From Firmicutes bacterium ADurb.Bin193 (GTDB lineage Bacteria; Bacillota; Clostridia; Monoglobales; Firm-18), in contig MWCQ01000003.1 of the NCBI GenBank assembly GCA_002070105.1, forward strand, positions 62,001 to 126,000: a stretch of 64,000 bases of DNA, in the 5' to 3' direction. The position numbers and the translations under genes were made by a program. Positions 21,623 through 45,911 of the stretch are shown here, piece after piece; position 1 is the first letter of the stretch; each line of letters opens with the position of its first letter. The notes under the pieces were generated by a model that worked only from the letters and a program-made list of their open reading frames with translations, had not been told where the DNA came from and searched no databases.

Positions 21623-21662
21623 TAAAAAAATCGCTCCCTTTTATTGATATAACATACAAATT

Positions 21663-23030: not shown

Positions 23031-23068
23031 TCTTCCTTCTCCCCTCAAAAAGCTATAATATACCCACT

Positions 23069-26053: not shown

Positions 26054-26113
26054 TATAAACCTCCGAAAGTATAATATTGGGCTGTCGCTGTTTATAATTC
26101 TATCCTTCGCATT

Positions 26114-27415: not shown

Positions 27416-27437
27416 ATAACTCCAATCATACAGGTTA

Positions 27438-28361: not shown

Positions 28362-28376
28362 CTCCTTTACAATTAG

Positions 28377-29516
28377 TTATATCTTTACCCAAGAGTCGGT
28401 CTTATTGCTTTGAACGATTTTTTCGCAAAGGGATATTCCTCTAAGACCTGCGGAAAATTCGGGGTATTCCTTTACGGTTTTTTCGCCGGAAATAACGCCG
28501 TATATCTTTTTGAAATTCTGCTTAAATGTATCGGGGAAGCCTTCGTTATGCCCCCCGGGATAGTCTATAAGCTCTCTTGAGCCGGGATATACAAGTGAAG
28601 GGTCCCTAATCAGCAATTCGTTTGCGCCGTCTCTCTTGCCTATCCAAACCTCGTTGGGGCTTTCGGATGTCCATGCCGCTGCTTTTTTCGAGCCTGCGAT
28701 TTCAAAGGTTATCCTGTTCTTTCTTCCCGCACATACCTGGCTTACTGTAAGAGCGCCCCTTGCGCCGTTGTCAAACCTGAATATTACGGTAGCGTAATCC
28801 TCGGTATTTATCGGAACCTCTTTATAATCCTCAGGCTTTAAAAGCTTACCCGCATAGGTTTCAATGGGTTTTAAGGGCTTCTTTCTTGTTTTGTGGAAGG
28901 TTGCGAAATCCGCAAAAACCTCTGTGGCACGAAGCCCCGTAATAAACTCTATAAGATCCATCCAGTGCGAACCGATATCCGCAACAGCCCTCGACTCGCC
29001 CGCCGTTTCAGGCTCAAGCCTCCAATTATAGTCCGTATCATAAAACAGCCAGTCCTGAAGGTATGACCCGTGAACAGAAAAAATACGACCCATATCGCCG
29101 TTTTCAATCGCGGCTTTAATCTGCTGAACCAGCGGATAAAATCTTACATTAAAATTGACGGCGTTAACAAGTCCCTTTTGCTCCGCAAGCGCAACAAGCT
29201 CCTCGGTTTCACTCTTGTTTGTGGTCAGAGGCTTTTCGCATACGACATGCTTGCCCGCACTCAATGCCGCCTTAGCCATCATGTAATGAAGATGGTTGGG
29301 CGTGCATATATGTACGCAGTCAATATCCTTGCTGTTTATAAGCTGTTGCCAGTCACTGTAATATGTATCGACTCCGAGTTGCTCCGCTTTAGCTTTAACA
29401 ACGCTTTCGTCATCTGCTATCGCCACGACATTAACATTGCTAAGCCTCCGAAGCGCCTCAATATGAGCAACACCTATAAAGCCCACTCCGATTATTCCCG
29501 CATTTATTTTTTTCAT
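28377..29516 (-). CDS. Gfo/Idh/MocA-family oxidoreductase
   Basis: A 379-residue NAD(P)-dependent sugar or inositol dehydrogenase. The Rossmann loop reads [17 protein letters not shown], the conserved EKP is in [12 protein letters not shown], and the C-terminal sheet domain has [12 protein letters not shown], where the His is part of the usual catalytic set. It is the first gene of the run 29516 to 18796. The 140-base upstream region holds a perfect palindrome at 29561-29570, a possible regulator site. The substrate is unknown. Confidence 0.88.
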
Positions 29517-29560
29517 TTAAATATCACACCATTTCACATTATTCAGATTAAAAACATAGC

Positions 29561-29570
29561 TTAGCGCTAA
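29561..29570. promoter_or_regulatory. Perfect palindrome TTAGCGCTAA, candidate LacI-type operator
   Basis: It lies 45 bases upstream of the first gene of the glycan run. A palindrome with a central CG pair is typical of LacI/GalR-family operators. It is short, and no regulator gene is in the window. Confidence 0.3.
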
Positions 29571-29598
29571 AATTAAACCGATTTAATAACAATTTATA

Positions 29599-29629
29599 CG
29601 CCCCTAATGCTTTATTGCATATAGGGGCG
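29599..29629 (-). terminator. Possible terminator of deoC
   Basis: CGCCCCTA and TAGGGGCG pair, extended by ATGC/GCAT around a short loop. The T-run on the minus strand is weak. Confidence 0.5.
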
Positions 29630-29656
29630 ATATTTGCGTTGAGGTCAGATTATTGT

Positions 29657-30349
29657 TTATTTTAATGTCCCGGCCTTTTCCCTTGCCCTTGCTTCGTCAA
29701 CGATAGCTGCCGTTGCTGTTGCTCCGAACCTTGTCGCACCGGCTGCCCTTACTTCAAGCGCCGCATCCAGCGTCCTTACACCGCCCGCGGCCTTGACCTT
29801 TACATTCTTACTGCAGGTTGCCCTCATAAGCTTAAGGTCGTCAATGGTAGCGCCGCCGGTTCCGAAACCTGTCGAGGTTTTAACATAATCGGCGCCTGCC
29901 CTTTCGCATATTATGCAGGCCTCTTTTTTCAATTCATCGGTAAGATAGCAGTTTTCAAGAATAACCTTTACTATTACATTATGTTTGTGAGCCACATCAA
30001 CCACGGCTTTTATATCCTTTTCAACATAATCAAAATCGCCCGACAAAAGCCTGCCGATATTCAGCACCATGTCCAATTCAACACAGCCGTCCTTAATCGC
30101 TTCCTCTGCCTCAAAAACCTTTACCGCGGTTTTGTTTGAACCGTGGGGAAAACCTATAACGGTGGTTGTAAGAACATTACTGCCTTCCAGCTCTTTTTTA
30201 GCAAGCGCAGCATCCGAAGGCTTTACACATACCGTAGCTACATCATACTCCTTTGCAAGGCGACAGCCGTCTATAACATTTTGTGTAGTAAGCTCCGACC
30301 TTAACAGTGAATGGTCAATCATTTTTGCAATATCCTTTGCTGAAATCAT
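29657..30349 (-). CDS. deoC: Deoxyribose-phosphate aldolase
   Basis: A 230-residue class I aldolase that splits 2-deoxyribose 5-phosphate into glyceraldehyde 3-phosphate and acetaldehyde. The Schiff-base Lys is in ADYVKTSTGFGTGG and a second Lys is in VKAAGGVRTL. The N-terminal IDHSLLRSELT is typical. It has its own promoter and lies between, not inside, the glycan runs; no other nucleoside catabolism genes are near. Confidence 0.94.
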   Translation of the reverse strand: MISAKDIAKMIDHSLLRSELTTQNVIDGCRLAKEYDVATVCVKPSDAALAKKELEGSNVLTTTVIGFPHGSNKTAVKVFEAEEAIKDGCVELDMVLNIGRLLSGDFDYVEKDIKAVVDVAHKHNVIVKVILENCYLTDELKKEACIICERAGADYVKTSTGFGTGGATIDDLKLMRATCSKNVKVKAAGGVRTLDAALEVRAAGATRFGATATAAIVDEARAREKAGTLK

Positions 30350-30402
30350 TTTAACATCTCCTATTCTTTATTTGTGCATAATTTTTGCATTTTCCTATAA
30401 AA

Positions 30403-30431
30403 ATTCTATCATAAGTTTTTATTAAATGCAA
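30403..30431 (-). promoter_or_regulatory. Sigma-A promoter of deoC
   Basis: On the minus strand TTGCAT (30426-30431), 17 bases, TAGAAT (30403-30408). The rest of the 315-base gap holds AT-rich sequence and the terminator at 30505-30565. Confidence 0.6.
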
Positions 30432-30504
30432 TACCTATGGCGTTTAATGTCATCATAAAAACAAACAAAAAATTTCGACTTAATTTTTAAAAAATCTATT
30501 ATTC

Positions 30505-30565
30505 AAAAAAACAAGAGAAGCTTTGCCTGTTAAAGAAGGTCAAAAAAGCATTCTCTTGTTTTTTT
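30505..30565 (-). terminator. Terminator of the Gfo/Idh/MocA gene at 30665
   Basis: AACAAGAGAA and TTCTCTTGTT are complementary, with A-rich and T-rich flanks. Read on the minus strand the stem ends in seven T. Confidence 0.7.
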
Positions 30566-30664
30566 CTTGTTGTTTTTCTATGCCATCAATTGAAAAAAAT
30601 TCGATTGTAGAAATTTTTTCTTTCCTTTGCGCGTTTCGACGAAGCGGGGGATATCTTAATGGCG

Positions 30665-31744
30665 TTACAGATTCCAGTCTAAAATTACCTCACGCTTTGT
30701 TTGCGAGGACTGATATATTGCATCCAAAATAAGATTGTTTGTAAGCCCTGTCATCTGATTTGAAATGCTTTCCTTCCCTTCGCGCACGCAATCGATAAAA
30801 TGTCTGAGCATTGCAGCTCTGCTATCTTCGGTGTTGTCGGGCTTTTCGATATCAACGGTAATGGAGCGGTCAAACCCTTCGGTGTAAAACTTTCCCTCGT
30901 TTTCCGTCATTTGCGCGCCGCCTTCGGTTCCGAACAGATAAAGCCAAGGGTTGCTTTCACCTATATCACCGTGCATAGCCCAGCTTACTTCAAGCGAAAG
31001 CATGCTTCCGTCCTCCATTCTTATAAGCGCGGTAGCAAGGTCGTCAACATCAAACCACCCGCTCATGTCGCGAGTTCCCCATGTTCCGAGCCCTATTTTG
31101 TTTTGTCCGAGCTCAGCGTATGTCGAACCGAAAACCGATACGGGCTTCGGATTCCCCATAAGATACAGAGCAAGGTCAATCATATGTACGCCGATATCAA
31201 TTAAAGCGCCGCCGCCCGACTCTTCTTTTCGGGTAAAGGCAGAACCCCAGCCGGGGATTCCCTTTCTTCTGAGCCATCCCGTCTTGGCATAGTAAATCCT
31301 GCCAAGCTCGCCGGCTTCTACATTCTGTTTAATTTCCCGGGAAAGCCAGTTCCACCTCATCTGATGCGGAACCATAACAATTTTTTTATACTCCTTCTGT
31401 GCCCTTACTATATCCTTTGCCGACCGGACATCAAATGCCATAGGCTTTTCAAGCATAATATGCTTCCCCGCCTTTAATGCATCAATTGCAATAGGCGCAT
31501 GATATTTATTGGGCACCGCAATAATAACCGCATCAATATCCTTGTCCTCAAGCATCTCGGTATATGTTTTGCATACACGAGGCACATTAAATTCCGCTGC
31601 GACCTTCTGTGCCGAAGGCTCAAAAACATCCGTTACGGCTGAAATAATAACCTCATCAGGAATCATGGACAGTTGTTGCAGATGAATCTTGCCTATGCTC
31701 CCCGTTCCGACTACTCCAAAGCACAGTTTCCCGTTTTTACTCAT
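30665..31744 (-). CDS. Gfo/Idh/MocA-family oxidoreductase
   Basis: A 359-residue dehydrogenase with Rossmann loop GVVGTGSIGKIHLQQL, EKP in HIMLEKPMAF and a catalytic-type His in DIGVHMIDLALYL. It is only distantly like the 379-residue paralog at 28377. It appears to be a single-gene unit, with a near-consensus promoter upstream and a strong terminator downstream. Substrate unknown; a sugar or cyclitol from the neighbouring glycan genes is plausible. Confidence 0.88.
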   Translation of the reverse strand: MSKNGKLCFGVVGTGSIGKIHLQQLSMIPDEVIISAVTDVFEPSAQKVAAEFNVPRVCKTYTEMLEDKDIDAVIIAVPNKYHAPIAIDALKAGKHIMLEKPMAFDVRSAKDIVRAQKEYKKIVMVPHQMRWNWLSREIKQNVEAGELGRIYYAKTGWLRRKGIPGWGSAFTRKEESGGGALIDIGVHMIDLALYLMGNPKPVSVFGSTYAELGQNKIGLGTWGTRDMSGWFDVDDLATALIRMEDGSMLSLEVSWAMHGDIGESNPWLYLFGTEGGAQMTENEGKFYTEGFDRSITVDIEKPDNTEDSRAAMLRHFIDCVREGKESISNQMTGLTNNLILDAIYQSSQTKREVILDWNL

Positions 31745-31854: not shown

Positions 31855-32796
31855 CTATCTCTTTCCGATTCCAAGCTCAAATATAGTTGTCCATGAGTTT
31901 TCGTTGTTGCCGTTTCCGGTAAGCCTTATATAGCGGATGCTTTGTTCTGCAAAGCCGTAATACTCATAACCCCTTAGTTCCGCTGAAGCACCACTGCTTA
32001 CAATGCTTCCGATAATTGTAAAGTCTGTTCCGTTTACAGAACCCTCAAGATCAAAATTATATTTTCTTGAATTAGCTTTTGCAAAAGAAATTACAACACA
32101 GTCAACCGGCTTTACGCTTCCGAGGTCGAAGGTTATGGTTATTCCCGGGCTTCCGTAGGAAAATTGTGTTTCCGTGCTACCGTCATACAGACTTTCAGCT
32201 TGAGTTCCATTTGCGCCGGGAGCGCTTGTTTCAACCGCTGAAATAGTGTATTTTTCCTTCATAACTGTAGTAGCAGGAAGGATCTCTACACCGGCGGCAG
32301 GAGTAGGTGCTGCTGTCGGTGTGGGTGTAGGTGTCGGCGTAGGTGTAGGTGTCGGCTCAGGCTTTTTGGTCGTTATTACAACCTTGTTGCTTGCCTCTAT
32401 CCACTGTACATCTGCGCCGAGCGACTCGGAAATGAACCGGAGAGGTACCATCGTCCTATCCTGATGCAGCATTGCGGGTACATCCAATATCTTTTTAGCA
32501 CCGTTTACGGTTGCCTCGGTGTTTCCGATTTGAAGTACTATTGTTGTATCGTCCTTAACCGCTGTTACCGTTTCGGTTGCCTCCTCCCAAGATACGGTTG
32601 CTCCCATAATCTCAAAAATATAACGCATAGGTACCATTGTACGGTCATTTATAAGGATGGGTGCGGGGTCAAAGGTGTACAATGTACCGTCAATCTCTAC
32701 CTTGATTGCATCATCTGCAAAAATCGTTCCGAAGGACAATAGTGTTGCAATAGCCGTTGCCATGCATAGCAATCTTACAAAAGAGAGTTTTTTCAT
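31855..32796 (-). CDS. Exported copper-amine-oxidase-N-type and discoidin domain protein
   Basis: A 313-residue protein. The signal peptide (1-27) ends near SFGTIFA. A CAO-N-type domain follows (about 30-145) with INDRTMVPMRYIFEIMG and QDRTMVPLRFISESLG. A Pro-Thr linker (about 148-168) leads to an F5/8 type C domain (about 185-311) ending FELGIGKR. There is no enzyme domain, so it is probably a surface or secreted binding protein. The CAO part shares 131 identical bases with the next gene. The start follows TAGGAGGGG. Confidence 0.82.
   Translation of the reverse strand: MKKLSFVRLLCMATAIATLLSFGTIFADDAIKVEIDGTLYTFDPAPILINDRTMVPMRYIFEIMGATVSWEEATETVTAVKDDTTIVLQIGNTEATVNGAKKILDVPAMLHQDRTMVPLRFISESLGADVQWIEASNKVVITTKKPEPTPTPTPTPTPTPTAAPTPAAGVEILPATTVMKEKYTISAVETSAPGANGTQAESLYDGSTETQFSYGSPGITITFDLGSVKPVDCVVISFAKANSRKYNFDLEGSVNGTDFTIIGSIVSSGASAELRGYEYYGFAEQSIRYIRLTGNGNNENSWTTIFELGIGKR
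32459..32589 (-). repeat. 131-base block identical to 33476-33606
   Basis: Reading both lines base by base I find no difference. Both copies encode the middle of the CAO-N-type domain. Flanking bases differ, which points to recent exchange. Confidence 0.85.
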
Positions 32797-32864: not shown

Positions 32865-33328
32865 GTTGATTCTTACTTCAACCCGATCACAATTGTCATA
32901 CTTTTTACTTTTTCTTCACAATAACTAAATACATTTGGTTATTGTTACTGTTTTCGCCAAGCTCTATTGTGCTTCCGGCCGTAAATGATTTTTTGTAAAG
33001 ACTGAATGTAACCTCTTTATTAAGCGTCGCCAAAATATCCTCTCCGGTGTCGGTATAGCCGCTCATCCATTCAGGCTTGGACGGGTCCATATCGGTGTGC
33101 GCAATATATACATCGGCATCCGCAGTAATCTTAAAGGTTGCTACTGTGCCACCGGAGTTTTTGGAGTCATTTGCGGTCTTAATCCAATCCGCACCCTTTA
33201 CAGTGTCGGGTACTGTGTTTAAAACAAAATCCCTGTCTCCGTAGAAAACATCACCCTCCTGAATGTTGCTTGCTACTGACCACATTGAACCAAAGCCGTC
33301 CATTGCAACAAAGTCGGTTATAATCGAA
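32865..33328 (-). repeat. 464-base block nearly identical to 38104-38567
   Basis: About four differences and no gaps between the copies. The block covers the C-terminal module and 40 bases beyond the stop codon. Confidence 0.9.
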
Positions 33329-36165
33329 GCACCTGACGGAGCCGGTGTTGTCGGTGCAGATGTCGGTGTAGGTGTAGCCTTTTTGGTCGTTATTACAACC
33401 ATATTGTTTACCTCTATCCACTGTACATCTGCGCCGAGCGACTCTGATATAAACCGAAGCGGTACCATTGTCCTGTCCTGATGCAGCATTGCGGGTACAT
33501 CCAATATCTTTTTAGCACCGTTTACGGTTGCCTCGGTGTTTCCGATTTGAAGTACTATTGTTGTATCGTCCTTAACCGCTGTTACCGTTTCGGTTGCCTC
33601 CTCCCACGATACGGTTGCGCCCATAATCTCGAATATATAACGCATAGGCACCATTGTTCTGTCATTTACAAGCATTGGTGCAGGGTCAAAGGTATATTCC
33701 TTTCCGTCTATCTCTACCTTTATTGCACCGCGGTCAACCGGTGCCTGAGTCGGAGCAGGTGCAACATATGAATCCCAACCGTTCGGAATTGGCAGGGGCA
33801 TATTAAGCCACAGCGCACGCTTGTACTGGCGCTTTTCGGGGTCCTTATGCTGCCAGTCGTCGGGCGCGGGGAATACAAAGTTTCCGTTGCCCGATCCCAA
33901 AATTATATCACCTGTAACAGGGTGCTGATACAGCCTTGGGGATTGCAGAACACGGGGAGCATTCATGGTAATGTCTTCCCATGTGCAGGCCGTAAAGTCG
34001 TCATTCATTCTGCCGCGCCATACAATCGGCCCGCCGCCGATATTGACAAGAGCGTGAAGAAGTTTCGGGTCGCTGCTGTCAACAATAATTTTTTCAACCA
34101 TCAGCGTTTCATACTTGATGGGGAATTTTTTGTACTCGGCAAGAAGATTCAGCTTAATCTGCTCCCATGTGCCATCGGGTTTTTCTTTAAGTAAAAGAGC
34201 ATCCCTGTCGGGGTCAACGGTATATATTCGCTTGTCGGTAGTCGGGTCAACAAACACCAGACCAAGCTCTGCGGGATAACCCATTACTCTTACCTTAAGG
34301 TGGTAAATTTCCTTCCATGTTTCACCGTGATCGGTACTCTTTTTTATAACATACTCGTTATTCGAAGGCTTTGTAACCGTATATATCGTGTCGCTTACCT
34401 GGGATGTTGTAATAACATCTGTCTTTGCCTTATTATATGTCCATGTGGTGCCTCCGTCAAAAGATATATTGGGTCCCGCATATACTATATTCGGGTTTGA
34501 CTTGCTGTAGCAAACATAATCGCGGTTAATGGCACCGCCGCCAACACCGGGGTCTTTTTCAATCCACTCGTTCCATGTGGTCTGCCCCTTATTTTGCGTA
34601 ATTATAAACTCAGGGCCGCCGGAGTTGTCACTAATTGTAGCAATACACCTTCCGGGCAAGTCGGGGCTTGCGGGCGGCGGTGCGTCCTTCGGCCACGGGT
34701 CGGGCAGTCTTACAATTGCACGGATGGTACGGCTACCCATTTTTGTTACCGCCTTCATTCTTGTCCATTGTTGATCGGTTATCTGACTGTAATTAAACGA
34801 ATCGCCTCCGTTTACCGTATAGAAGTTGCCGGCATCCTGACAGGAGATATCTATTCTTTTCCAGTCATTTTCATCAAAGTTCATATCATAGAAAATAGGT
34901 CCGAAAAAGTTTGTGGAGCTGCTCTTCCACACCGTGCCGCCGTTTCCTTCGCTCCTCCACCAATAGTTACGCCCATGGGCGATTGCCGAGTCGGGCTGCG
35001 TGGGGTGTGCAATAAAGCATGCCTGCTTTACTCCGGTCATTCCCTGCTGATTCCATACCGTGGGGTTGTCGGCTTTAAGCGTAGCCTTAACCCATTGTCC
35101 GTCAAAATTGCGGATCATCGGGCTTTCTTTACCGACGGCATTATGGACATAAATCATCCTTTTTCCGTCTGCATTTTTAGCACCGACCGCCATATGTCCG
35201 GGATTAATCTTTAAAATATTATTCCACGAAGCGCCACCGTCGGCGGTTTCCCAAACACCCTGCTTTTCCGCAGCAGCACTTTCTACGCTCACAATTATGT
35301 GATTTGTATCATCCGGGTCAACCCACAGAGCACGAACCCCACCATCTATCTGGGCTTTCCACGGCTGTGTCCAGGTTTTACCGCCGTCCTTTGTTACCCA
35401 AACTCCTGAAGCGGTAGACATATAAAGCGTATCCTTTTCAGTCGGATGCTGATCAAGATCATATTTGTCCTTGTATGTATCAAAGGACAATTCGCAGACC
35501 TTGGTCCATGTCTTTCCACCGTCGTTTGAGGTGAAGAAGCCCCCGTTAGCCTGTTGCTGTGCGGATGCCGCAAACCGCCATACACGGGTGTCCGGATCTC
35601 CTCCCGTTATGGGATAGCATGCAAAATTATCCTGCATTACCCTTAAATTAACCGCCGGAAATGACAAAACCTGAGACCAGTTTTGCCCTTTGTCGGTTGA
35701 GCGCCACACTCCTTCAAGCGGCTTTAAACTGGGGAAAATCTGTTTTACCGAACCTGTCAGCATACAGATCATCATTACATTTGAGTCTGCCGGGTCGATT
35801 GCACAGGACTGCGCCTGGAACCCCTGAAGCCCGGTGCTCACGGGTGTATACCATGTCTTGCCGAAATCGTCGCTTACGCGTGCCGCGCCCATATCCTGAC
35901 CCATTAGAATTGTACCGTCCGAGCCTACCGTTGCTCCCTGTATATACTGGTAGCCCTCGCCGCCGTAAATACCCTTGCTGTAAAGCTCGGGGTAATCGGC
36001 CTTATCGGCGCCCAATTGAAAGTCTGCCCGCCCAAGCATCGGACGCCACTCAATTTTCTCGCCCGCCGCAAAAGCCTCCTGTTGCGGCAGTACCAAACCG
36101 CTTGTAAGCAGTAGTGTCATAACCAAAGCTGTGCAAATACATCTGAAAAATACTTTCGATTTCAT
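32905..36165 (-). CDS. Exported GH74-like BNR beta-propeller protein with CAO-N-type and C-terminal modules
   Basis: A 1086-residue protein. After a signal peptide (1-33, ending QEAFAAG) a long propeller carries about eight Asp-box turns, for example SDDFGKTWY, STDKGQNWS, SNDGGKTWT and SFDGGTTWT. The layout resembles GH74 xyloglucanases or sortilin-type BNR proteins; a catalytic pair cannot be assigned. A CAO-N-type domain follows (about 815-925), then a Pro-Thr-Ala linker and a 140-residue module that also ends the protein at 38144. It is close to a full-length version of the broken gene at 39237. The start follows TTGGAGG. Confidence 0.8.
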   Translation of the reverse strand: MKSKVFFRCICTALVMTLLLTSGLVLPQQEAFAAGEKIEWRPMLGRADFQLGADKADYPELYSKGIYGGEGYQYIQGATVGSDGTILMGQDMGAARVSDDFGKTWYTPVSTGLQGFQAQSCAIDPADSNVMMICMLTGSVKQIFPSLKPLEGVWRSTDKGQNWSQVLSFPAVNLRVMQDNFACYPITGGDPDTRVWRFAASAQQQANGGFFTSNDGGKTWTKVCELSFDTYKDKYDLDQHPTEKDTLYMSTASGVWVTKDGGKTWTQPWKAQIDGGVRALWVDPDDTNHIIVSVESAAAEKQGVWETADGGASWNNILKINPGHMAVGAKNADGKRMIYVHNAVGKESPMIRNFDGQWVKATLKADNPTVWNQQGMTGVKQACFIAHPTQPDSAIAHGRNYWWRSEGNGGTVWKSSSTNFFGPIFYDMNFDENDWKRIDISCQDAGNFYTVNGGDSFNYSQITDQQWTRMKAVTKMGSRTIRAIVRLPDPWPKDAPPPASPDLPGRCIATISDNSGGPEFIITQNKGQTTWNEWIEKDPGVGGGAINRDYVCYSKSNPNIVYAGPNISFDGGTTWTYNKAKTDVITTSQVSDTIYTVTKPSNNEYVIKKSTDHGETWKEIYHLKVRVMGYPAELGLVFVDPTTDKRIYTVDPDRDALLLKEKPDGTWEQIKLNLLAEYKKFPIKYETLMVEKIIVDSSDPKLLHALVNIGGGPIVWRGRMNDDFTACTWEDITMNAPRVLQSPRLYQHPVTGDIILGSGNGNFVFPAPDDWQHKDPEKRQYKRALWLNMPLPIPNGWDSYVAPAPTQAPVDRGAIKVEIDGKEYTFDPAPMLVNDRTMVPMRYIFEIMGATVSWEEATETVTAVKDDTTIVLQIGNTEATVNGAKKILDVPAMLHQDRTMVPLRFISESLGADVQWIEVNNMVVITTKKATPTPTSAPTTPAPSGASIITDFVAMDGFGSMWSVASNIQEGDVFYGDRDFVLNTVPDTVKGADWIKTANDSKNSGGTVATFKITADADVYIAHTDMDPSKPEWMSGYTDTGEDILATLNKEVTFSLYKKSFTAGSTIELGENSNNNQMYLVIVKKK
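33476..33606 (-). repeat. 131-base block identical to 32459-32589
   Basis: Partner of the block in the neighbouring gene; the offset is 1017 bases. Confidence 0.85.
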
Positions 36166-36213
36166 AGTGTAACCTCCAAAAAAGTAAATTTTTTTATACT
36201 TTATCCTGTTTTA

Positions 36214-37917
36214 CTAAAAAGAATTATAAATCTTTTTTGCGCTCCAATATGCCATTTTCGGATTTCTGTATTCATTTACAATTCCCTTGTTGTTAAAACT
36301 TCTGGGCCTTTTCATTTCATTTTCCTTTGGCGTCCGTGTGTCGCAATACTGCCATATATACGAGCCGACTACACCGGGAGTATTATGGAACAGCTCCAGT
36401 TCATAGCCTATAAGCTCTGCCTGATAGTTTTCAGACCATTTTTGATTCTCAAACGAGCACACACCGGCTATTCCCCCGCCGCCGAACTCCGTCATAAGAA
36501 TCGGCAAATGTCCTAGGTTAAGGCTATTTACATATTCCTTCAGGTTTTCAAAAAATCTAAACCATGATGAGGCCTCGCCGTGATACCATCCGAAATACTT
36601 ATTAATGCTTATAACATCGACAAGCGAATAACAAATATCACACAAGGGGTGATTGCTTGCATAGGAAACAAGCCGGCTTTTATCAAGACTTCTGACCTTT
36701 TCAACAAACGACTTTGTAATATCAAACGCCGCCTGAGTATTCGTCGCAATTTCATTGTGAACGCTCCAGAAAATGATTGAGGGGTGGTGATAGTCCCTTA
36801 TAACCATTTCCTCAATCATCATAAGGCCTCTTTCCATAATCAGAGGATTTTGCAAAGGCTCTTCCGGATATCCCCACATGGGTATTTCTTCCCAGAAAAG
36901 CAAGCCTTCCTCATCAAGGCAGTCAAGAAACAGCTTTGAATTGGGATAGTGAGAACCCCTGATAGAATTACAGCCAAGGTTTTTTATTATGGCTATATCC
37001 TTTCTCATCAAATTAAGCGGAACGGCAAAGCCCCAGTCGGGGTGGTCCTCATGCCGATTAACGCCCTTAATGTATATTTCCTTGCCATTAAGCAGAATTT
37101 TTTTATTCTCCGCCTTTATATGCCTGAAGCCTGTGCGGTCAATCATATCGTCGACAACAACGCCGCCGTCTGTTATTTCTGCTCTGAAATAGTACAAATT
37201 CGGCTTAAAAATATCCCAAAGCTTTATATTATCTATCGAATACCCGCTAAAGCTTATTTCCTTTAACGGATTATTTTTGTCAAGCTCATGCGTATATATC
37301 AGATTATCCTCCATATATACATTTACAACTGGCTTTTGCAGTTTATCGGCAACACCGTTTATGCTCACCTTAACTCCGATTTCGGCAGATGTAAAAGCAT
37401 CGTTAAGTTTATAGTCTATCTTAAAATCATCGACCCACAAATTCCGAAGTTCCTGAACCTCTACGCTTCGGTGGATTCCGCCGTAATGAAACCAGTCCAC
37501 CTCTGCAAGCGGAATGGTGTTCATGTTGTCATGCGTGTTGTCAACGGAAACGGCAAGAAAATGCTCTCCGGCTTTCAGACCGCTTAAAATAAAATTAAAC
37601 CCTGTCCATCCGCCATAATGTCCGCCGATATGTACGCCGTCAACATAAACCTCTGCCTGTCCCGTTACCGCATGGAAAATAAGATTCACATTTCCGCCTG
37701 CGGTAAACTTTTTGAAATACCACATAATGCCTTCATAATGATACAATCCCAGTTCATTATTCCAGCAGGAAGGAACACAAGTATCCTTACACTCGTTCGG
37801 CAGGCTTTCATACCATTTTTCGCTGACACCCACCTTTTCCGGGTCCGCTTTCATTTTCCACATTCCGTCTAAAAAGTTAGTCTTTCGGTTTTTATAACTT
37901 TCAAAAAGCCTTACCAA
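36214..37917 (-). CDS. Glycoside hydrolase family 2 protein (beta-glucuronidase/galactosidase-like)
   Basis: A 567-residue GH2 enzyme: an N-terminal jelly-roll (about 1-170, with VYVDGVHIGGHYGGWTGF), an immunoglobulin-like domain, and a TIM barrel with GVNRHEDHPDWG, the acid/base Glu in WSVHNEIATN and the nucleophile Glu in PILMTEFGGGG. The length and YIWQYCDTRTPKE favour the glucuronidase-like branch; the sugar is not proven. No signal peptide is visible. The start is TTG 37917, nine bases after GGAG. Confidence 0.87.
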   Translation of the reverse strand: MVRLFESYKNRKTNFLDGMWKMKADPEKVGVSEKWYESLPNECKDTCVPSCWNNELGLYHYEGIMWYFKKFTAGGNVNLIFHAVTGQAEVYVDGVHIGGHYGGWTGFNFILSGLKAGEHFLAVSVDNTHDNMNTIPLAEVDWFHYGGIHRSVEVQELRNLWVDDFKIDYKLNDAFTSAEIGVKVSINGVADKLQKPVVNVYMEDNLIYTHELDKNNPLKEISFSGYSIDNIKLWDIFKPNLYYFRAEITDGGVVVDDMIDRTGFRHIKAENKKILLNGKEIYIKGVNRHEDHPDWGFAVPLNLMRKDIAIIKNLGCNSIRGSHYPNSKLFLDCLDEEGLLFWEEIPMWGYPEEPLQNPLIMERGLMMIEEMVIRDYHHPSIIFWSVHNEIATNTQAAFDITKSFVEKVRSLDKSRLVSYASNHPLCDICYSLVDVISINKYFGWYHGEASSWFRFFENLKEYVNSLNLGHLPILMTEFGGGGIAGVCSFENQKWSENYQAELIGYELELFHNTPGVVGSYIWQYCDTRTPKENEMKRPRSFNNKGIVNEYRNPKMAYWSAKKIYNSF

Positions 37918-38045
37918 ATTCGCTCACTCCATCAATTTATTATTCAGCTTTATTTTAAAGATCATAATATTTTGCGTTAGCTATAGTTTGTCTTAATAGC
38001 GAATAAAATCCCGCCCAGATGCGATTTTTTTGATAAAACACCGAT

Positions 38046-38075
38046 TTGAAGGGGCAGTAGCCTCTGCCCCTTCAA
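38046..38075 (-). terminator. Intrinsic terminator after the gene at 38144
   Basis: TTGAAGGGGCAG pairs with CTGCCCCTTCAA around TAGCCT. It lies just past the duplicated 464-base block, so the duplicated DNA stops before the terminator. Confidence 0.75.
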
Positions 38076-38103
38076 AATCAAATGTTATGCTCGATTTTAC
38101 CTC

Positions 38104-38567
38104 GTTGATTCTTACTTCAACCCGATCACAATTGTCATACTTTTTACTTTTTCTTCACAATAACTAAATACATTTGGTTATTGTTACTGTTTTCGCCAAG
38201 CTCTATTGTGCTTCCGGCCGTAAATGATTTTTTGTAAAGACTGAATGTAACCTCTTTATTAAGCGTCGCCAAAATATCCTCTCCGGTGTCGGTATAGCCG
38301 CTCATCCATTCAGGCTTGGACGGGTCCATATCGGTGTGCGCAATATATACATCGGCATCCGCAGTAATCTTAAAGGTTGCTACTGTGCCACCGGAGTTTT
38401 TGGAGTCATTTGCGGTCTTAATCCAATCCGCACCCTTTACAGTGTCGGGTACTGTGGTTAAAACAAAATCCCTGTCTCCGTAGAAAACATCACCTTCCTG
38501 AATGTTGCTCGCTACTGACCACATTGAACCAAAGCCGTCCAGTGCAACAAAGTCGGTTATAATCGAA
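38104..38567 (-). repeat. 464-base block nearly identical to 32865-33328
   Basis: Partner of the block in the 32905 gene, offset 5239 bases. Protein differences are Asn to Thr in DFVLNTVP and Met to Leu in FVAMDGF. Confidence 0.9.
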
Positions 38568-39103
38568 CCACTTGACGAATCGGGCGTTGTTGTCGGTGTG
38601 GGTGTGGGTGTAGGTGTAGGTGTAGGTGTAGGTGTGGGTGTCGGCGTAGGCGTAGGTGTCGGCTCAGGCTTTTTGGTCGTTATTACAACCGTGCTTGTTG
38701 CCTCTACCCACTGCACATCGGCGCCGAGCGACTCTGAAACAAACCTTAGCGGAACCATTGTCCTGTCCTGATACAGCATCGCGGGTGCGTCCAATACCTT
38801 TTGAGCACCGTTTACCGTTGCATTAACGCTTCCGATTTGAAGAACTATTGTTGTGCTGCCCTTAACAGCCGTTACAGTTTCGGTAGCTTCCTCCCACGAT
38901 ACGGTTGCGCCCATAATCTCGAAAATATAACGCATGGGTACCATAGTACGGTCATTTACAAGGATGGGTGCGGGGTCAAAGGTGTACGATGTGCCGTCAA
39001 TCACGACCTTAATCGGATCATCCGCAAAGATCGCACCGAAAGACAATAGCATTGTGAAAACAGTTGCAATGCATAGCATTTTGATAAAATTGTGTTTTTT
39101 CAT
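38144..39103 (-). CDS. Exported CAO-N-type domain protein with Pro-Thr linker and C-terminal module
   Basis: A 319-residue protein: signal peptide (1-27), CAO-N-type domain (about 30-145) with VNDRTMVPMRYIFEIMG, a Pro-Thr linker of about 30 residues coded by a hexamer tract, then the 140-residue module (EWMSGYTDTGEDI, MYLVIVKKK). The module looks like those at the C termini of some pectin-acting enzymes; that link is from memory and tentative. It is a reassortment of parts from the genes at 31855 and 32905. The start follows GGAGGG. Confidence 0.82.
   Translation of the reverse strand: MKKHNFIKMLCIATVFTMLLSFGAIFADDPIKVVIDGTSYTFDPAPILVNDRTMVPMRYIFEIMGATVSWEEATETVTAVKGSTTIVLQIGSVNATVNGAQKVLDAPAMLYQDRTMVPLRFVSESLGADVQWVEATSTVVITTKKPEPTPTPTPTPTPTPTPTPTPTPTPTTTPDSSSGSIITDFVALDGFGSMWSVASNIQEGDVFYGDRDFVLTTVPDTVKGADWIKTANDSKNSGGTVATFKITADADVYIAHTDMDPSKPEWMSGYTDTGEDILATLNKEVTFSLYKKSFTAGSTIELGENSNNNQMYLVIVKKK
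38595..38660. repeat. Hexanucleotide tract (GGTGTA-type), about 11 units
   Basis: Runs of GGTGTA, GGTGTG and GGCGTA code on the minus strand for the Pro-Thr linker. Length change by slippage would keep the frame. A shorter tract is at about 32319-32354. Confidence 0.9.
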
Positions 39104-39236
39104 GACTTTCCCTCCAAATTTAATAATATTATGATAAACAAAAGTTTGCCTTTTGTCTATACCTTAAAAATTGAATATTGCCGCCAAAAGTGCGCTGTGG
39201 TGCGATGAAAATAATTCAAGTATTGCTTTAAAACAT

Positions 39237-39981
39237 TTATCTGTGCCCTATTTCAGCCTCATAAATATTTATAAAGGTATTTTTGGTATTTCCCTTATTT
39301 ACAATCCTGATATAGCGGAGGCTTTGTTCGGGTATTGCATAATACTCCTTAGAATTGTTTTTTGCTGCCGTTCCGGTGCTCTCAAGGCTTGTCGCTATAG
39401 GTGTAAAGTCCGTCCCGTTTACCGGCACTTCAAGATCAAAGGTGTATTTTCTTGAATTGTTGCCGCTCCATGATATTGCTATACAGTCAACCTTCTTTTC
39501 ACTTCCGAGGTCATGGGTTATAGTCACACCAATTTCTTTATTTGCCCAGTTTGTTGCTAAATCCCCGTCAAACAAATTCTCGGCAGGAAGACCATTGTGG
39601 CCGGGGCTGCTTGTTTCAGCACTTACAATAGTGTATTTTTCCTTCAAAGTAGTATTAGCAGGAAGAATACTTACTCCGCTTGCAGGAGCGGGTGCGGGTT
39701 GTGCCCATATCCTGACCCATCAGAACTGTGCCGTCCGAGCCTACGGTTGCACCCTGTATGTACTGGTAGCCCTCGCCTCCGTAAATACCCTTGATGTAAA
39801 GGTCGGGATAATCAGCCTTATCGGCGCCCAACATAAAGTCCCTGCGCCCAAGCATAGGACGCCACTCTATTTTCTCGCCGGCCGCAAAAGTTGCCTGTTG
39901 TACGAACGGCAGTCCGCCCGTCAGCAGTACTGTCATAACCAATACTGCGCACAGCAATCTTAAATACCGTCTTCTTTTCAC
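39237..39981 (-). pseudogene. Collapsed BNR-propeller gene fused out of frame to a discoidin domain
   Basis: The 5' part (39981 to about 39712) encodes a signal peptide and the first 90 residues of a BNR protein very like the 32905 gene (EKIEWRPMLGR, KGIYGGEGYQYIQGA, GQDMG). At GQDMG the sequence jumps to a Pro-Ala linker and an F5/8 C domain like that of the 31855 gene (LKEKYTIVSAET, FINIYEAEIGHR), but in another frame, so the first frame stops at 39655. The downstream frame has no ATG or ribosome site; its nominal start is an internal TTG. An internal deletion plus frame change in an ancestral propeller-discoidin gene explains this. Confidence 0.85.
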
Positions 39982-40058
39982 ATTTTATCCTCCAATAATT
40001 ATACAAAACAAGAACAATATCGTCAATTTGTTGCGAAATTGTGTTCAATAAGCATTTA

Positions 40059-41564
40059 TTAAGCCGGTGATGTCCGCTCACAAAGCTCTCCGTCCTTTTC
40101 CATTTCAGCGGATATAAAACGCCGGAAAAGCAAAAACTTTACATCGGCATACTGCGGGTTATCCCATAGATTGCGAAGCTGGTCGGGGTCGTCATGGAGG
40201 TCATACAATTCCCCGTATTCCCTGTTGTGATAGACAACAAGCTTATACCTTTCCGTAATAAATGTCTTTTGCATGAACGAGCTTTGAGACGGTCTGAATT
40301 CGACCATTGCCCAATCCCTTTGACTGTTTTTTGCATCTATCCAGGCATTTTCCTGATTAACTCCCTGCAAGCCCACGGGAGGCTTTACGCCCGCAAAGCT
40401 TAAAAATGTTGCCCCCAAATCTACTATGCTTTGAAGAGCCGTGCTTCTTTGGTTGGGCGTTTTACAATCGGGATGTACGACAAGGAACGGGATTTTTTGA
40501 ACATCCTCATACGCAGGCAGACCCTTCCACCAAAGACCGTGGTTCCCCATATAATCCCCGTGGTCTGTCGTAAACACAATTATGGTATCCTCCATAAGCC
40601 CTTTTTCCTCAAGATAATCCACTATTCTTCCGATATGGTGGTCCATCTGGCTTACCATGCCATAGTATTTTGTCATTATATCACGCTTTTTCTCATCATC
40701 CATAAAAGGAAGCGGAGAAATACAGTGCCAGTCCTTCTCACCAAAGTCAAGGTCATCACAGGCATAGCCGGTATCGGGTTTTTTCTCGACAATGGTTGAA
40801 TAGAACGGAGGCTTACCCTCAAGCTCACCCTCACGAAGTCCGTAAACAGGCATATCCTCCTTATTATACATGCTTGCCCACGGTTCGGGTACGAAACAGG
40901 GGTTGTGCGGGTCTTCAAAACTTGACCAGATGAAGAACGGTTTATCCTTTTCCTGCGCCATTTCAACCGCCTTAATGGTTAAGTCCGCCGTCCACTTTGA
41001 ATTGGAATATTCCTGGGGCAGATCCCATGTTCCGAAATCCGTATATTTGTTGTTTCCGAAATATTTTGACACATCAAGCCCCTGTTCCTCAAGCCACAGA
41101 CCATAGTGCATTCCCGAAGCAAGGATCTCGCAGGAATGCCCTATGACAAGCTGGCAATACTCAAAGCCGAAATAGGGACCTGACCAGTTTCGGTAAAAAT
41201 CTCTGTCTAAAATGCTCGGCAATGATTCAAAGCCGCCTTCCGTAAGGCAAGGCTTAAAATGAGCCTTACCGATCAGACTTGTGAAATATCCGTTTTCGCC
41301 GAGAATCTTCGGAATCGTTGTGGGATAATCATCTTCAAGCCCTGTTCCGATTGTATAACAACCGTGCTTTGACGGATAATGCCCCGTCAGAATAGACACT
41401 CTTGTGGGCGTACAAACGGGGTTGCAGGTGTATGCCCTTTCAAATGCAATCCCCTTCTTTAAGAGCTTGTCAAGATTGGGCGTTTTTATTTTGTCGTTCA
41501 TATAGCCCACTGTATCCCAACGCTGTTGGTCACTTGTAATTAGAAGAATATTTCGCTTTTTCAA
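40059..41564 (-). CDS. Sulfatase of the alkaline phosphatase superfamily
   Basis: A 501-residue type I sulfatase. The formylglycine motif is C-T-P-T-R with Cys51 (NPVCTPTRVSILTG). Metal residues are suggested by ITSDQQRWD near the start and by FTTDHGDYMGNHG. It hydrolyses sulfate esters; a glycan substrate is likely from its neighbours. As a Cys-type enzyme in an anaerobe it should need a radical-SAM maturase (anSME), which is not in the window. There is no clear signal peptide. It lies between two exported BNR loci. Confidence 0.88.
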   Translation of the reverse strand: MKKRNILLITSDQQRWDTVGYMNDKIKTPNLDKLLKKGIAFERAYTCNPVCTPTRVSILTGHYPSKHGCYTIGTGLEDDYPTTIPKILGENGYFTSLIGKAHFKPCLTEGGFESLPSILDRDFYRNWSGPYFGFEYCQLVIGHSCEILASGMHYGLWLEEQGLDVSKYFGNNKYTDFGTWDLPQEYSNSKWTADLTIKAVEMAQEKDKPFFIWSSFEDPHNPCFVPEPWASMYNKEDMPVYGLREGELEGKPPFYSTIVEKKPDTGYACDDLDFGEKDWHCISPLPFMDDEKKRDIMTKYYGMVSQMDHHIGRIVDYLEEKGLMEDTIIVFTTDHGDYMGNHGLWWKGLPAYEDVQKIPFLVVHPDCKTPNQRSTALQSIVDLGATFLSFAGVKPPVGLQGVNQENAWIDAKNSQRDWAMVEFRPSQSSFMQKTFITERYKLVVYHNREYGELYDLHDDPDQLRNLWDNPQYADVKFLLFRRFISAEMEKDGELCERTSPA

Positions 41565-41606
41565 TTGATTGCCTCCTATGTATTTTGCTTAAATTTTAGT
41601 AAAAGG

Positions 41607-44600
41607 CTATAACCCCGTTACGCCTGAAGAAGAGAAAGTTATAACCTCTGCCGCGGGCTGAATCTCCGACAGACTGTCCCATACGAAAACCTTTACCCTA
41701 TAATCCGCAACGGACTGTCCCTGCGAAACCGTAACATTCGTGGTTAAGGAAAGCTCAAGCTGACCTTCCGAGGGAATATCTTCCTTGTCCGTAACCTTTA
41801 TTCCGACAAGCTTTCCCTTATAGTATACCGCAACCCCGACCCTTACGGGAGTGGGGAAGGTTTCATTTGTGTTTTTAACCGTTATGTCTGTCTTTATATT
41901 CCCGCTTTGTAAGCCTGTCTGCGTTATGTCTCGGTCTCCTCCCACTGCGTCCTTCAGCGTAAAGCGAACACTTTCAACGGACAGCTCAAGAGGCATAAAG
42001 CCTATCGAAACCTCGCATATATCGGTAAATTTGAATGAACTAACCCCTGTAGATGTGTTTCCTTTACAAATATATCTGATATAGCGGATGTTTTGGGTGC
42101 GGAATTTGAAAAATTCATAATTCCCTTTTGCAAGACCGGCGCTTAATAGGTTGCCCGTTATGTCGGTGAAATTGTTTCCGTCCTTTGAGCCCTGTAATTT
42201 GAATTTATATTTCCTGTCGCTTGCGGAACCGTACCACGATAGCGCAATATAATTTACATCCTTTACGCTTCCCAAGTCATACTGTATGTATGCTCCCAGG
42301 ACATTTGTATTGTAATATGTATTAAAGTCCCCGTCAATCATATTTGATGCAATGTTCTCTTCTTTATAGGGACCAACTTCGGTTATAATTCCTGTTATAT
42401 TGCTTGGGAGCGGTTCCTTCTCTTCCTCCTCAAGTATGCTTCCGTCATTCGGAATAGGCTTGGGCAGATTGAGCCACAGCGCCCGCTTGTACTGGCGCTT
42501 TGCGGGATCCTTATGCTCCCAGTCATCAGGCGCGGGATAAACAAAGTTTCCGCAGCCCGAGCCTAAAAGCAAATCGCCCGTAACCGGATGGACAAAAATC
42601 TTTGACGACATTGAAATTCTCGGCGCATTTGCGCTTATATCCTCCCATGTGCACGCCGTAAAGCTTTCGTTCAAACGCCCGCGCCACACGGTCGGCGCAC
42701 CCGCCACATCAACAAGCGCATATATAAGCCTCGGATCGCTGTAATCCACGCGTATGAATTCGACAACCCAGCCGGGGTTTTTACTGCCGTAAGAGCCGGA
42801 AAGATTAAGATTTTTACCGCTCCAGGTCCCGCCGCTTTCTTTAAGGAGGTATACATCGCCTTCCTCACTGACTGTGTAAAGGCGCTTATCGCTGTTGGGG
42901 CCTGTAAAAATCTTTCCGTTTGAACCGTTATCTAATATTCTCCATGTAGTAGTAAAAATTGTGCTCCAGCTACTGCCCTGGTTGGTAGATCTCATAATAT
43001 GATAGTTGGGCTTTGCTTCATTAACCGAATATATTGTGTCACCGTTTATATAAGACATAGCGGCAACTCTTCTGCTTCCGTTATTTATCGTCCAGGTAGT
43101 ACCCCCGTCGGTTGAAACATTCGGACCGGTATAGACAACATTGGGGTTTTGCCTGCTGAAAAAAACATGATCCCGGTTGACTCCGTTGCCGCCCACATTT
43201 GTAGCCTTCCCTATCCAGTCATTCCATGTGGTCTGACCCTTATCCTGAGTAAAGATAAAATGCGCAGCGCTGCCGCCGAGACTTAAAATTCGTCTGCCGG
43301 GAACTTTTGAGTTTGCGGGTGGCGGAACATTAGAAGGCCACGGGTCGGAAAGCCGGACAATATCACGCCCTGAACGGGCTTTTACTTTATCAGCGCCGAC
43401 CTGTTTTATCATTCTATCCCATTGTTGGCCTGTTCCCTTGCCTGTTATATTACTTAAGGTAAACCAGTCACCGCCTGTTGTGCTGCAGGTGGTTCCGCTG
43501 TCCTGTGTAGCCATGTCCATTATTCTCCAGTTTTCGTCGTCAAAGTGTACGCCGTTTATGGAGAATCCGAAATAATTCGTATTGCTGGGTACCCAGGTCC
43601 TACCTTCGGTGCCCTCACTTCGCCACCAGTAGTTCCTGCCGTGAACAAGACACACATCAGGCTCGGTAGGGTGGGGAAGAAATACGCACTGCATACTCCC
43701 TGTAATAGATTGCTGATTCCATACCTCAGGATTTGCCGCTTGTATGGTGGGAGTAATCCAGTTACCCGAAAAATTTCTGATCCTCGGAGAACCGGTGCTA
43801 TCATCGTTGTGGACATATATCATCCGCTTGCCCTGAGCATTTTTCGCCCCGACAGCTGCCTGACCGGGATTTATCGCATTCATTATGTTGTTCCAGCTTG
43901 TGCCCCCGTTTGTTGTCTCCCAGATGCCGCGCTGTGAGGTAGTGTTGCTGGTTACGCTTACAATCATGTGGTTCGGATCATCGGGGTCAATCCACAGCGA
44001 GCGGGGAGAACCCTGAATTTTCGATGCAAACAGCTCCGTCCAGTTTTTACCCCCGTCAGTAGTGCGCCAAAGCCCCGTTTTAGTACACATGTACAGAGTG
44101 TTAACCTGTGTGGGGTGCTGGTCCAAATCATACTTAGGTCCGTATGTACCGTTTGCAAGGTTTGTTACCTTTGTCCATGTCCTGCCTCCGTTCTTGGATT
44201 CCCAAAACGAGCCGGGCCCTCCGTCCTGGTCGGAGGTTGCAAAGCGCCAGATACGCTCATCACTTGAGCCGCCCGAAATCGGATAGCATGCAAAGGTATC
44301 CTTGTAAAACCTATAGCCGCTTGTATATGTAATGTCTGGAATCGCCTGAACAAGCGTCCAGCTCTGTCCCTTGTTATCCGAGCGATAAATGCCCTCAAGA
44401 TTCAAAAGCTGGGGCACCGCCTGTTTCAGATTGTTTGATGACATTGCGATAAACATCACATTTGAATCCGCAGGGTCTATTGCACAGGCATTTCCGCCGT
44501 ACAGAGGATTGCCGATGTTCGGAGGGGAATACCATGTTTTCCCGAAATCCGTACTTACCCGTGCGGAGCCCATATCCTGTCCCATTAGCACGGTCCCGTC

Positions 44601-44846
44601 CGGATGTATTGCAGCACCGTGTATATATTGATAGCCCTCTCCGCCGTATTTACCCTTTGTGTAATACTGCGGATAGTCAACCTTGTCCGCGCCAAATTCA
44701 GCCTGCTTACGATTAATAAGCGGACGCCACTCAATCTTCTCGCCCGCAGCGGAAGATTGCTGTACTTTAAATACTATTCCACCGTTTGTAACCGTCATAA
44801 AAACCAAAGCTGCACACAAAAGCCGAGAAAACAACCCCTTTTTCAT
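41607..44846 (-). CDS. Exported GH74-like BNR beta-propeller protein with discoidin domain
   Basis: A 1079-residue paralog of the 32905 protein. A signal peptide (MKKGLFS through SSAAG) leads to a propeller with about eight Asp-box turns (STDFGKTWY, SDNKGQSWT, TTDGGKNWT, STDGGTTWT). The C-terminal part differs: an F5/8 C domain (MIDGDFNTYYNT to TDICEVSIGF) and a final Ig-like domain of about 110 residues. There is no CAO-N-type domain. The ATG at 44846 follows AAGGAGAAG; an ATG at 44867 lacks a ribosome site. It is probably the promoter-proximal gene of the run down to 38144. Confidence 0.82.
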   Translation of the reverse strand: MKKGLFSRLLCAALVFMTVTNGGIVFKVQQSSAAGEKIEWRPLINRKQAEFGADKVDYPQYYTKGKYGGEGYQYIHGAAIHPDGTVLMGQDMGSARVSTDFGKTWYSPPNIGNPLYGGNACAIDPADSNVMFIAMSSNNLKQAVPQLLNLEGIYRSDNKGQSWTLVQAIPDITYTSGYRFYKDTFACYPISGGSSDERIWRFATSDQDGGPGSFWESKNGGRTWTKVTNLANGTYGPKYDLDQHPTQVNTLYMCTKTGLWRTTDGGKNWTELFASKIQGSPRSLWIDPDDPNHMIVSVTSNTTSQRGIWETTNGGTSWNNIMNAINPGQAAVGAKNAQGKRMIYVHNDDSTGSPRIRNFSGNWITPTIQAANPEVWNQQSITGSMQCVFLPHPTEPDVCLVHGRNYWWRSEGTEGRTWVPSNTNYFGFSINGVHFDDENWRIMDMATQDSGTTCSTTGGDWFTLSNITGKGTGQQWDRMIKQVGADKVKARSGRDIVRLSDPWPSNVPPPANSKVPGRRILSLGGSAAHFIFTQDKGQTTWNDWIGKATNVGGNGVNRDHVFFSRQNPNVVYTGPNVSTDGGTTWTINNGSRRVAAMSYINGDTIYSVNEAKPNYHIMRSTNQGSSWSTIFTTTWRILDNGSNGKIFTGPNSDKRLYTVSEEGDVYLLKESGGTWSGKNLNLSGSYGSKNPGWVVEFIRVDYSDPRLIYALVDVAGAPTVWRGRLNESFTACTWEDISANAPRISMSSKIFVHPVTGDLLLGSGCGNFVYPAPDDWEHKDPAKRQYKRALWLNLPKPIPNDGSILEEEEKEPLPSNITGIITEVGPYKEENIASNMIDGDFNTYYNTNVLGAYIQYDLGSVKDVNYIALSWYGSASDRKYKFKLQGSKDGNNFTDITGNLLSAGLAKGNYEFFKFRTQNIRYIRYICKGNTSTGVSSFKFTDICEVSIGFMPLELSVESVRFTLKDAVGGDRDITQTGLQSGNIKTDITVKNTNETFPTPVRVGVAVYYKGKLVGIKVTDKEDIPSEGQLELSLTTNVTVSQGQSVADYRVKVFVWDSLSEIQPAAEVITFSSSGVTGL

Positions 44847-45911
44847 AAATCTTCTCCTTAAAACCATTTACCGATCCACTGAAATACAGTTTTTTCAGTG
44901 AAGCTCGCCAAAACCTCCCTTTAACTGTAACATAACCGACTGTCTAAAAGAGTAGTGCAAAAAACACAAATCGTGTTACCTATACAATCCTATTTACAAC
45001 CGATTTTATGCATGCTTCCTGCGCAAAAACAACGCAGGCATTATCTGTTTCCTATTACAACCTCCATAAGGTTAAACCATATTTTAGCCGTTTCTATACT
45101 ATTCCCGTGACCGATAATCTTCAGATAACGGAGCAAAACCTAAAAACATGGATACCGTCAGAGAAAATCCTAATTGTCAGGATATTGTGCGTTTTAATGA
45201 GTTTCGCCTTTTCACTTTTCATTTTCCTCCAATAATATAGTAAGCCGTCGTATTGCAAGCCGGATGTATTTAAAGGCCTGAAAAACATTCATTTAAAGTC
45301 AACAACAGTAGCGGTATCATCTTTGTTATAGTATGATATCGCTTGTAAATCCGGTGGAGCATCTTTCCCATAATTTAATTTCAGTGAAACCGCCGTAAGA
45401 TTTTTAAGCAATAGCAAATAACAAGTAATATGTAAAAATAATAGCAGAAAAGGAATGATTATGAGTAATCTATAACATTATATTACTATCTATATTATGA
45501 TTACAGTTACCCTATTATTATTTTATAATATAAGAAGGGTTTTGTCAATAAAAAGCGGAAATAGGTTGCATTTCTCGCCTTTTGATTATAAGCACATTCA
45601 ATAATAAACAAGTCGTTTCATCCAAAGTCTTTATGTATAATGACAACAACAAAAAACACCGCATAACAGCTTATTAATAACACATAATTTTTATCTTGAA
45701 AAAGATTGATTGAAGAAAAACGGAGAACGAAAGAAGAAAAAATAAGCCACACCTTCACAACTTTTGCAGCTATTAAGAATTTCTTAAATTCATTAAAAAG
45801 CTTTTCGCTTGCGAAAAGCAACCATAATTCTTCTTTTTTCTTTTTTATTTCTTATTTCGAAAAGCCTTTTTAAAGAAAAAAGAAAAATGAAGAAATAAGA
45901 AATAAAAATAC
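44847..45911. other. Gene-free stretch with hairpins and A/T-rich inverted repeats
   Basis: No credible gene is seen in this 1.1 kb. It holds CACTGAAA/TTTCAGTG (about 44877-44900), CCTGCG/CGCAGG (45018-45038), GCTTTTCGC/GCGAAAAGC (45800-45819) and a perfect 17-base inverted repeat, 45842-45858 with 45892-45908. Frames at 45008-45235 and 45618-45821 lack ribosome sites and family features. Confidence 0.6.

Follow-up and report, generated by a model that had tools for sequence, protein, structure and literature searches.

The locus raises the question of what work is done at the cell surface by a set of exported proteins in which BNR, copper amine oxidase N (CAO-N; Cu_amine_oxidN1, PF07833) and discoidin (F5/8C; PF00754) modules recur in different orders. 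The window, that is, the whole stretch of 64,000 nucleotides analysed, belongs to a 2.63-Mb genome of 58 contigs. Taken together, the results make it likely that these genes encode wall-displayed, GH74-like polysaccharide degraders with a CAO-N anchor and glycan-holding modules, and that modules have been copied between the genes.

Modular genes and their remnant

The five modular genes, named here by their lower coordinates (Table 1), were all open and on the minus strand. Their predicted export and their Pfam modules bore out the description of an exported modular family given in the initial annotation, and profile searches confirmed BNR/Vps10-type propellers, Cu_amine_oxidN1 and F5/8C. Four ORFs of the window matched F5/8C at 41.8-59.5 bits against a curated cut-off of 28.2, and chance was excluded for the module calls by Pfam E-values of 1e-10 to 1e-39 together with a perfect repeat of 353 bp. 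The fourth module, a tail of about 140 amino acids in 32905 and 38144, had no Pfam match; it weakly matched (profile, 7e-5) the C-terminal part of PDB 6hpd, a GH2 beta-galactosidase, which is insufficient for a name. The four module types proposed for the five loci are present, but 18796 lacks BNR, its third region giving a weak PD40/WD40-like match, and it falls outside the exchanging set because its CAO-N is just 32-37% identical to those of the other window genes.

The single remnant that had been predicted was confirmed as an out-of-frame BNR head with F5/8C. At its junction, the BNR head is joined out of frame to the linker and F5/8C ORF, the linker reading AQPAPAPASG in the other frame. 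The remnant records a deletion that joined a BNR head to the linker upstream of F5/8C, and therefore whole modules are also lost.

No dockerin or cohesin was detected by Pfam in the five modular genes, and none of the 66 SLH repeats of the genome lies in them. The earlier statement that dockerins and S-layer repeats are missing thus holds for these genes but not for the genome, where three dockerins and five cohesins exceeded the cut-off, all outside the five genes. A cellulosome (cohesin-dockerin) reading of these genes was rejected, since they carry neither domain and the few in the genome are on other contigs. Two small scaffold loci are separate from the CAO-N proteins: at C7:81249-85723, a frame of 953 aa encodes three cohesins and one dockerin and lies beside a second dockerin frame and an SLH protein, and at C2:218010-219527 one 777-aa frame combines dockerin, cohesin and SLH.

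Table 1. Coordinates of the features of the locus within the window
Feature	Position	Strand	Basis
Exported F5/8C (51-160) + divergent CAO-N (201-294) + PD40-like region	18796..20835	-	Pfam, CAO-N identity
Co-oriented catabolic genes: isomerase-like (2), GH30, GH106, hexokinase, Gfo/Idh/MocA (2), DeoC/LacD aldolase	20897..31744	-	
Exported stand-alone CAO-N (35-141) + PT linker + F5/8C (190-308); signal	31855..32796	-	Pfam
353-bp identical tract: tail end, stop + 40 bp beyond	32865..33217	-	= 38104..38456
Exported BNR/GH74-like double propeller + CAO-N (819-925) + PT linker + tail; signal	32905..36165	-	Pfam; AlphaFold model
CAO-N module of 32905-36165 (residues 819-925)	33391..33711	-	PF07833 7.5e-38
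Asp444 codon, motif QDxG, invariant; candidate catalytic acid	34834..34836	-	
Asp91 codon, motif GQDMG, invariant; candidate catalytic base	35893..35895	-	
GH2 glycosidase without signal peptide	36214..37917	-	PF02836 2.3e-46; N-terminus read
Second copy of 353-bp identical tract	38104..38456	-	= 32865..33217
Exported stand-alone CAO-N (34-141) + PT linker + same tail as 32905; signal	38144..39103	-	PF07833 3.5e-39
Remnant part 2: F5/8C module of a deleted BNR protein	39237..39647	-	PF00754 4.8e-16
Remnant part 1: signal peptide + BNR head, fused out of frame	39655..39981	-	86% DNA identity to 35878-36084; junction read
Sulfatase without signal peptide	40059..41564	-	PF00884 2.7e-51, SGSH_C; N-terminus read
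Exported BNR/GH74-like double propeller + F5/8C (CBM32-type; residues 834-943) + further C-terminal region, without CAO-N	41607..44867	-	Pfam; fold family

A sugar-catabolic cluster around the modular genes

The region 18796-44867 looks like an operon-like sugar-catabolic cluster of 26 kb, its main genes from 44867 down to 18796 all lying on the minus strand. The order is 41607 (BNR and F5/8C), the sulfatase 40059, the remnant (39981-39237), 38144 (CAO-N and tail), the GH2 gene 36214, 32905 (BNR, CAO-N and tail) and 31855 (CAO-N and F5/8C), followed by Gfo/Idh/MocA, aldolase, Gfo/Idh/MocA, isomerase-like, hexokinase, GH106, GH30 and isomerase-like genes, and then 18796. The cluster appears to be placed between housekeeping genes, because tRNA-synthetase-type genes occur near both flanks (valyl-type at 14716, class II at 46309). 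Neither a transporter nor a regulator was found in the annotated gene set of the cluster. The hexokinase of this bacterial sugar cluster (26114-27415) is of the Hexokinase_1/Hexokinase_2 type (PF00349/PF03727), which is better known from eukaryotes.

Sulfatases number 18 in the genome, both exported and cytoplasmic. BNR genes on contigs C2, C7 and C20 also adjoin sulfatases, which with the window makes four loci, and the BNR gene of C7 is in addition adjoined by a GH78-type rhamnosidase.

The BNR propeller resembles GH74 enzymes

Pfam gave mainly a Vps10/BNR match on the propeller. An AlphaFold model of 32905-36165 built from 14 homologous rows with signal peptides removed reached a pLDDT of 81.6 and a pTM of 0.76 (a first model from nine sequences with signal peptides kept had a pLDDT of 67.6). 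GH74 enzymes took the first 25 places among the PDB matches of this model, with E-values from 2.6e-22 to 3e-15 and TM values of at most 0.65, ahead of sortilin and unrelated WD40 proteins. The propeller is thus predicted to have the fold of GH74 (xyloglucanase), a tandem 7+7-bladed Asp-box two-propeller fold. Since the identity to GH74 in the structural alignments is only about 11-15%, it does not establish a substrate or even activity, and the GH74 profile matches covered part of one propeller only, short of clear similarity to characterised GH74 enzymes.

In GH74 enzymes, each propeller contributes a single catalytic Asp located close to its start. Asp91 and Asp444, both suitably placed for such a role, were invariant in the nine paralogues compared, and Asp444 was kept also in a 21%-identical relative. 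Asp91 aligned with GH74 in a weak stretch, whereas for Asp444 an alignment with GH74 by sequence was not obtained, the second propeller half giving no profile match by which to place it. Because only Asp91 aligned, and weakly, the two residues are treated as candidates and catalysis by the propeller as putative.

Of the ten BNR paralogues in the genome, one is interrupted by an in-frame TGA and the other nine are either intact or truncated at a contig end; the nine that were compared share 41-85% identity in pairs. The broken tenth gene (C4:55163-58621) has Sialidase-like_CBM (PF22585) modules in its C-terminal part, like the C9 paralogue, and a CotH-family (PF08757) protein (L052:8085-9719) adjoins the BNR gene of C4. 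Among 40 genomes including the nearest relatives, the BNR part was absent from all others among the matches listed, where a BNR match would rank high. It was found in 3 of 391 genomes of the class, counting the own genome and one distant match, and across 399 genomes of the phylum in the own genome only; one contig of a Paenibacillaceae MAG carried a BNR homologue, cut at the contig end. What is newly seen here is this ten-copy GH74-like family, nearly absent elsewhere, together with recent copying of modules.

CAO-N as a putative wall anchor

CAO-N occurs 50 times in the genome. In the 48 complete proteins it was N-terminal in 28, C-terminal in 14 and internal in six, and a signal-like hydrophobic segment was present in 46, the other two falling just under the threshold. 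Its partners include sulfatases, esterases, a solute-binding protein, LRR, MORN, GH26-like and lactamase-fold proteins. No CAO-N protein scanned had a Pfam match to the amine oxidase catalytic domain, as had been noted for the modular genes. This is expected rather than odd, because C. thermocellum OlpC has a CAO-like domain for which binding of secondary cell-wall polymer was found by experiment, according to the statement in PMC4582956 that cites Pinheiro et al., and because PF07833 proteins without an oxidase domain are listed in the surface proteome of D. reducens (PMC4137172), so that the state is a known one in Firmicutes.

CAO-N and SLH never shared a reading frame in the own genome, where the comparison was complete, and did not do so among the matches listed in three relatives, for which coordinates and frame lengths were compared by eye. 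The terminal position of CAO-N (42 of 48) and the lack of a frame in common with SLH are as expected of an alternative wall anchor. By analogy with OlpC, we infer that CAO-N would bind the wall in this species as an alternative to SLH; no sortase was found in the genome. Against reading the family as wall-anchored enzymes counts 41607, which has no CAO-N.

Stand-alone proteins of CAO-N and a CBM adjoin CAO-N enzymes in the window, and two such genes lie together on contig C15. Elsewhere, five CAO-N genes stand in tandem (C2:70467-78567), the one scanned giving a weak PD40 match; four CAO-N modules compared from this tandem were 76-92% alike and 46-50% identical to that of 18796.

Copying of modules between genes

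The tail is common to 32905, 38144 and a C20 sulfatase without BNR, with 2-4 base differences (1-3 silent) per 138 codons. In the same gene pairs, the CAO-N directly upstream differs by 40-59 bases (21-26 silent) in 116 codons. The tract matching the C20 sulfatase reaches from within the CACCTACACC linker repeat to the stop codon, and the one between 32905 and 38144 continues about 40 bp beyond the stop.

Between 32905 and its neighbour 31855 the CAO-N modules are 94% identical, against 74% between 32905 and the C7 BNR protein, the BNR part of which is the nearest to that of 32905 by identity (58%). The tree placed the CAO-N of 32905 as sister to that of the neighbouring gene (100/98), and a single clade of BNR-linked CAO-N was rejected (AU p 0.002), as was a clade of the C2, C7 and C3 trio CAO-N (p 0.004). 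For C2 and C7 as a pair, common descent was not rejected (p 0.16), so not every CAO-N pairing is in conflict. In a permutation test, conversion-like runs were detected for 31855 with 32905 (corrected p 0.018) and for the two C15 genes; other such runs were non-significant after correction.

Module exchange between genes is therefore real and recent, and the claim of rapid reshuffling stands as far as the tail tract and the tree test go. It does not extend to the BNR and CAO-N core: in a genome of another family (G301) the homologue likewise has BNR followed by a C-terminal CAO-N, so that this fusion looks old, or transferred whole. What moved are the modules outside this core, and the sequence of the CAO-N within it. 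In the assembly, C20 ends with a BNR gene cut inside CAO-N and C15 with the start of a CAO-N and F5/8C frame; an in-frame overlap of 11 bases between these ends makes it probable that the contigs are continuous here and that the break in the assembly fell within a repeated module.

Proposed working and alternative explanations

We propose that the proteins are displayed on the surface as part of a Gram-positive utilisation locus and degrade polysaccharide. The GH74-like double propeller would most likely cut an extracellular polysaccharide in the cleft between the propellers by means of the two Asp residues. CAO-N would anchor the enzyme to the wall via the secondary cell-wall polymer, as is reported for OlpC, doing the same job as SLH elsewhere in the cell, while F5/8C and the tail would hold the glycan. 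Oligosaccharides would then enter the cell, where the sulfatase, GH2, GH106, GH30 and sugar enzymes encoded in the cluster would complete their breakdown in the cytoplasm. A sulfated, rhamnose-containing substrate seems probable, as suggested by the exported and cytoplasmic sulfatases, the GH106 gene of the cluster and the rhamnosidase adjoining the BNR gene of C7; no single substrate follows from the neighbouring sulfatase, GH2 and GH106 genes. Anchor and binding modules are copied from one paralogue to another and also among unrelated enzymes. Homologous recombination or gene conversion is the probable route, and the copied tracts have their borders within the Pro/Thr linker and either at the stop codon or a little past it.

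The adhesin or scaffold logic of the initial annotation would make the propellers non-catalytic glycan-binding lectins, with modules swapped for attachment or variation. Export, the F5/8C modules, the number and identity range of the paralogues, and the stand-alone CAO-N proteins with F5/8C or tail and no catalytic part would all suit such a family, and the stand-alone proteins by themselves may be adhesins. For the family as a whole we regard this as unlikely, as the AlphaFold model gave a GH74 fold, the two Asp are invariant, and the genes are set inside a sugar-catabolic operon beside sulfatase and rhamnosidase genes, with sulfatases adjacent at four loci. Still less support can be given to whole-gene duplication or strong purifying selection as the source of the near-identical tails and similar CAO-N. 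The genes do lie close together and paralogue families are common, but silent sites are near-identical in the tail but differ in the CAO-N that these genes also carry, one tail partner is a sulfatase without BNR, identity stops at the stop codon and within the linker, and the trees conflict; an account free of module copying is thus highly improbable.

A different role for CAO-N, as a homotypic dimerisation module coupling the enzymes with stand-alone CAO-N and CBM proteins into cohesin-free complexes, is suggested by a Paenibacillus superoxide dismutase in which the PF07833 domain is the homodimer interface (PMC10432803) and by the adjoining stand-alone genes. That structure is only partly like the E. 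coli CAO domain (PMC10432803), OlpC offers a direct wall-binding precedent in the statement cited above, and CAO-N avoids SLH within one protein, as expected of two anchors; dimerisation in place of anchoring is accordingly improbable. Wall binding and dimerisation are mutually compatible, and CAO-N might be both wall ligand and homotypic coupler, the enzymes and stand-alone proteins forming scaffold-free wall complexes with a composition redrawn by gene conversion, although we give this extension little credence.

Relation to known systems and significance

The wall-anchored degraders favoured here would belong to an enzyme system whose general kind is known, although its anchor is little known. 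They are like GH74 xyloglucanases (PDB 7kn8, 6p2m, 2cn3) in the predicted two-propeller Asp-box fold over the full length and in having an invariant Asp close to where each propeller half begins, but differ in the low identity, in the attached CAO-N wall-anchor module, and in a sulfatase and rhamnosidase rather than xyloglucan context. With OlpC and ScaG of cellulosome-forming clostridia they would have in common, as far as the published statements cover it, PF07833 as a non-SLH wall anchor on exported polysaccharide-degrading machinery; here, however, CAO-N is fused directly to enzymes and CBMs, is present in 50 copies, and has no cohesin on the CAO-N proteins examined. The logic of terminal anchor, catalytic domain and CBM is that of SLH-anchored modular enzymes of Firmicutes, whereas the anchor here would be CAO-N, and SLH is found on different proteins of this organism. 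Gram-positive polysaccharide utilisation loci are similar in their co-oriented glycosidases, sulfatase and sugar-catabolic genes, and differ in that a transporter or regulator was not identified among the annotated genes of this cluster.

These results would give a concrete role, as an alternative to SLH, to CAO-N, a very common and little-understood domain of Firmicute surface proteins. They point to a candidate GH74-like enzyme family expanded in one lineage, and they make the copying of modules between unrelated surface enzymes visible with borders at the level of single bases.
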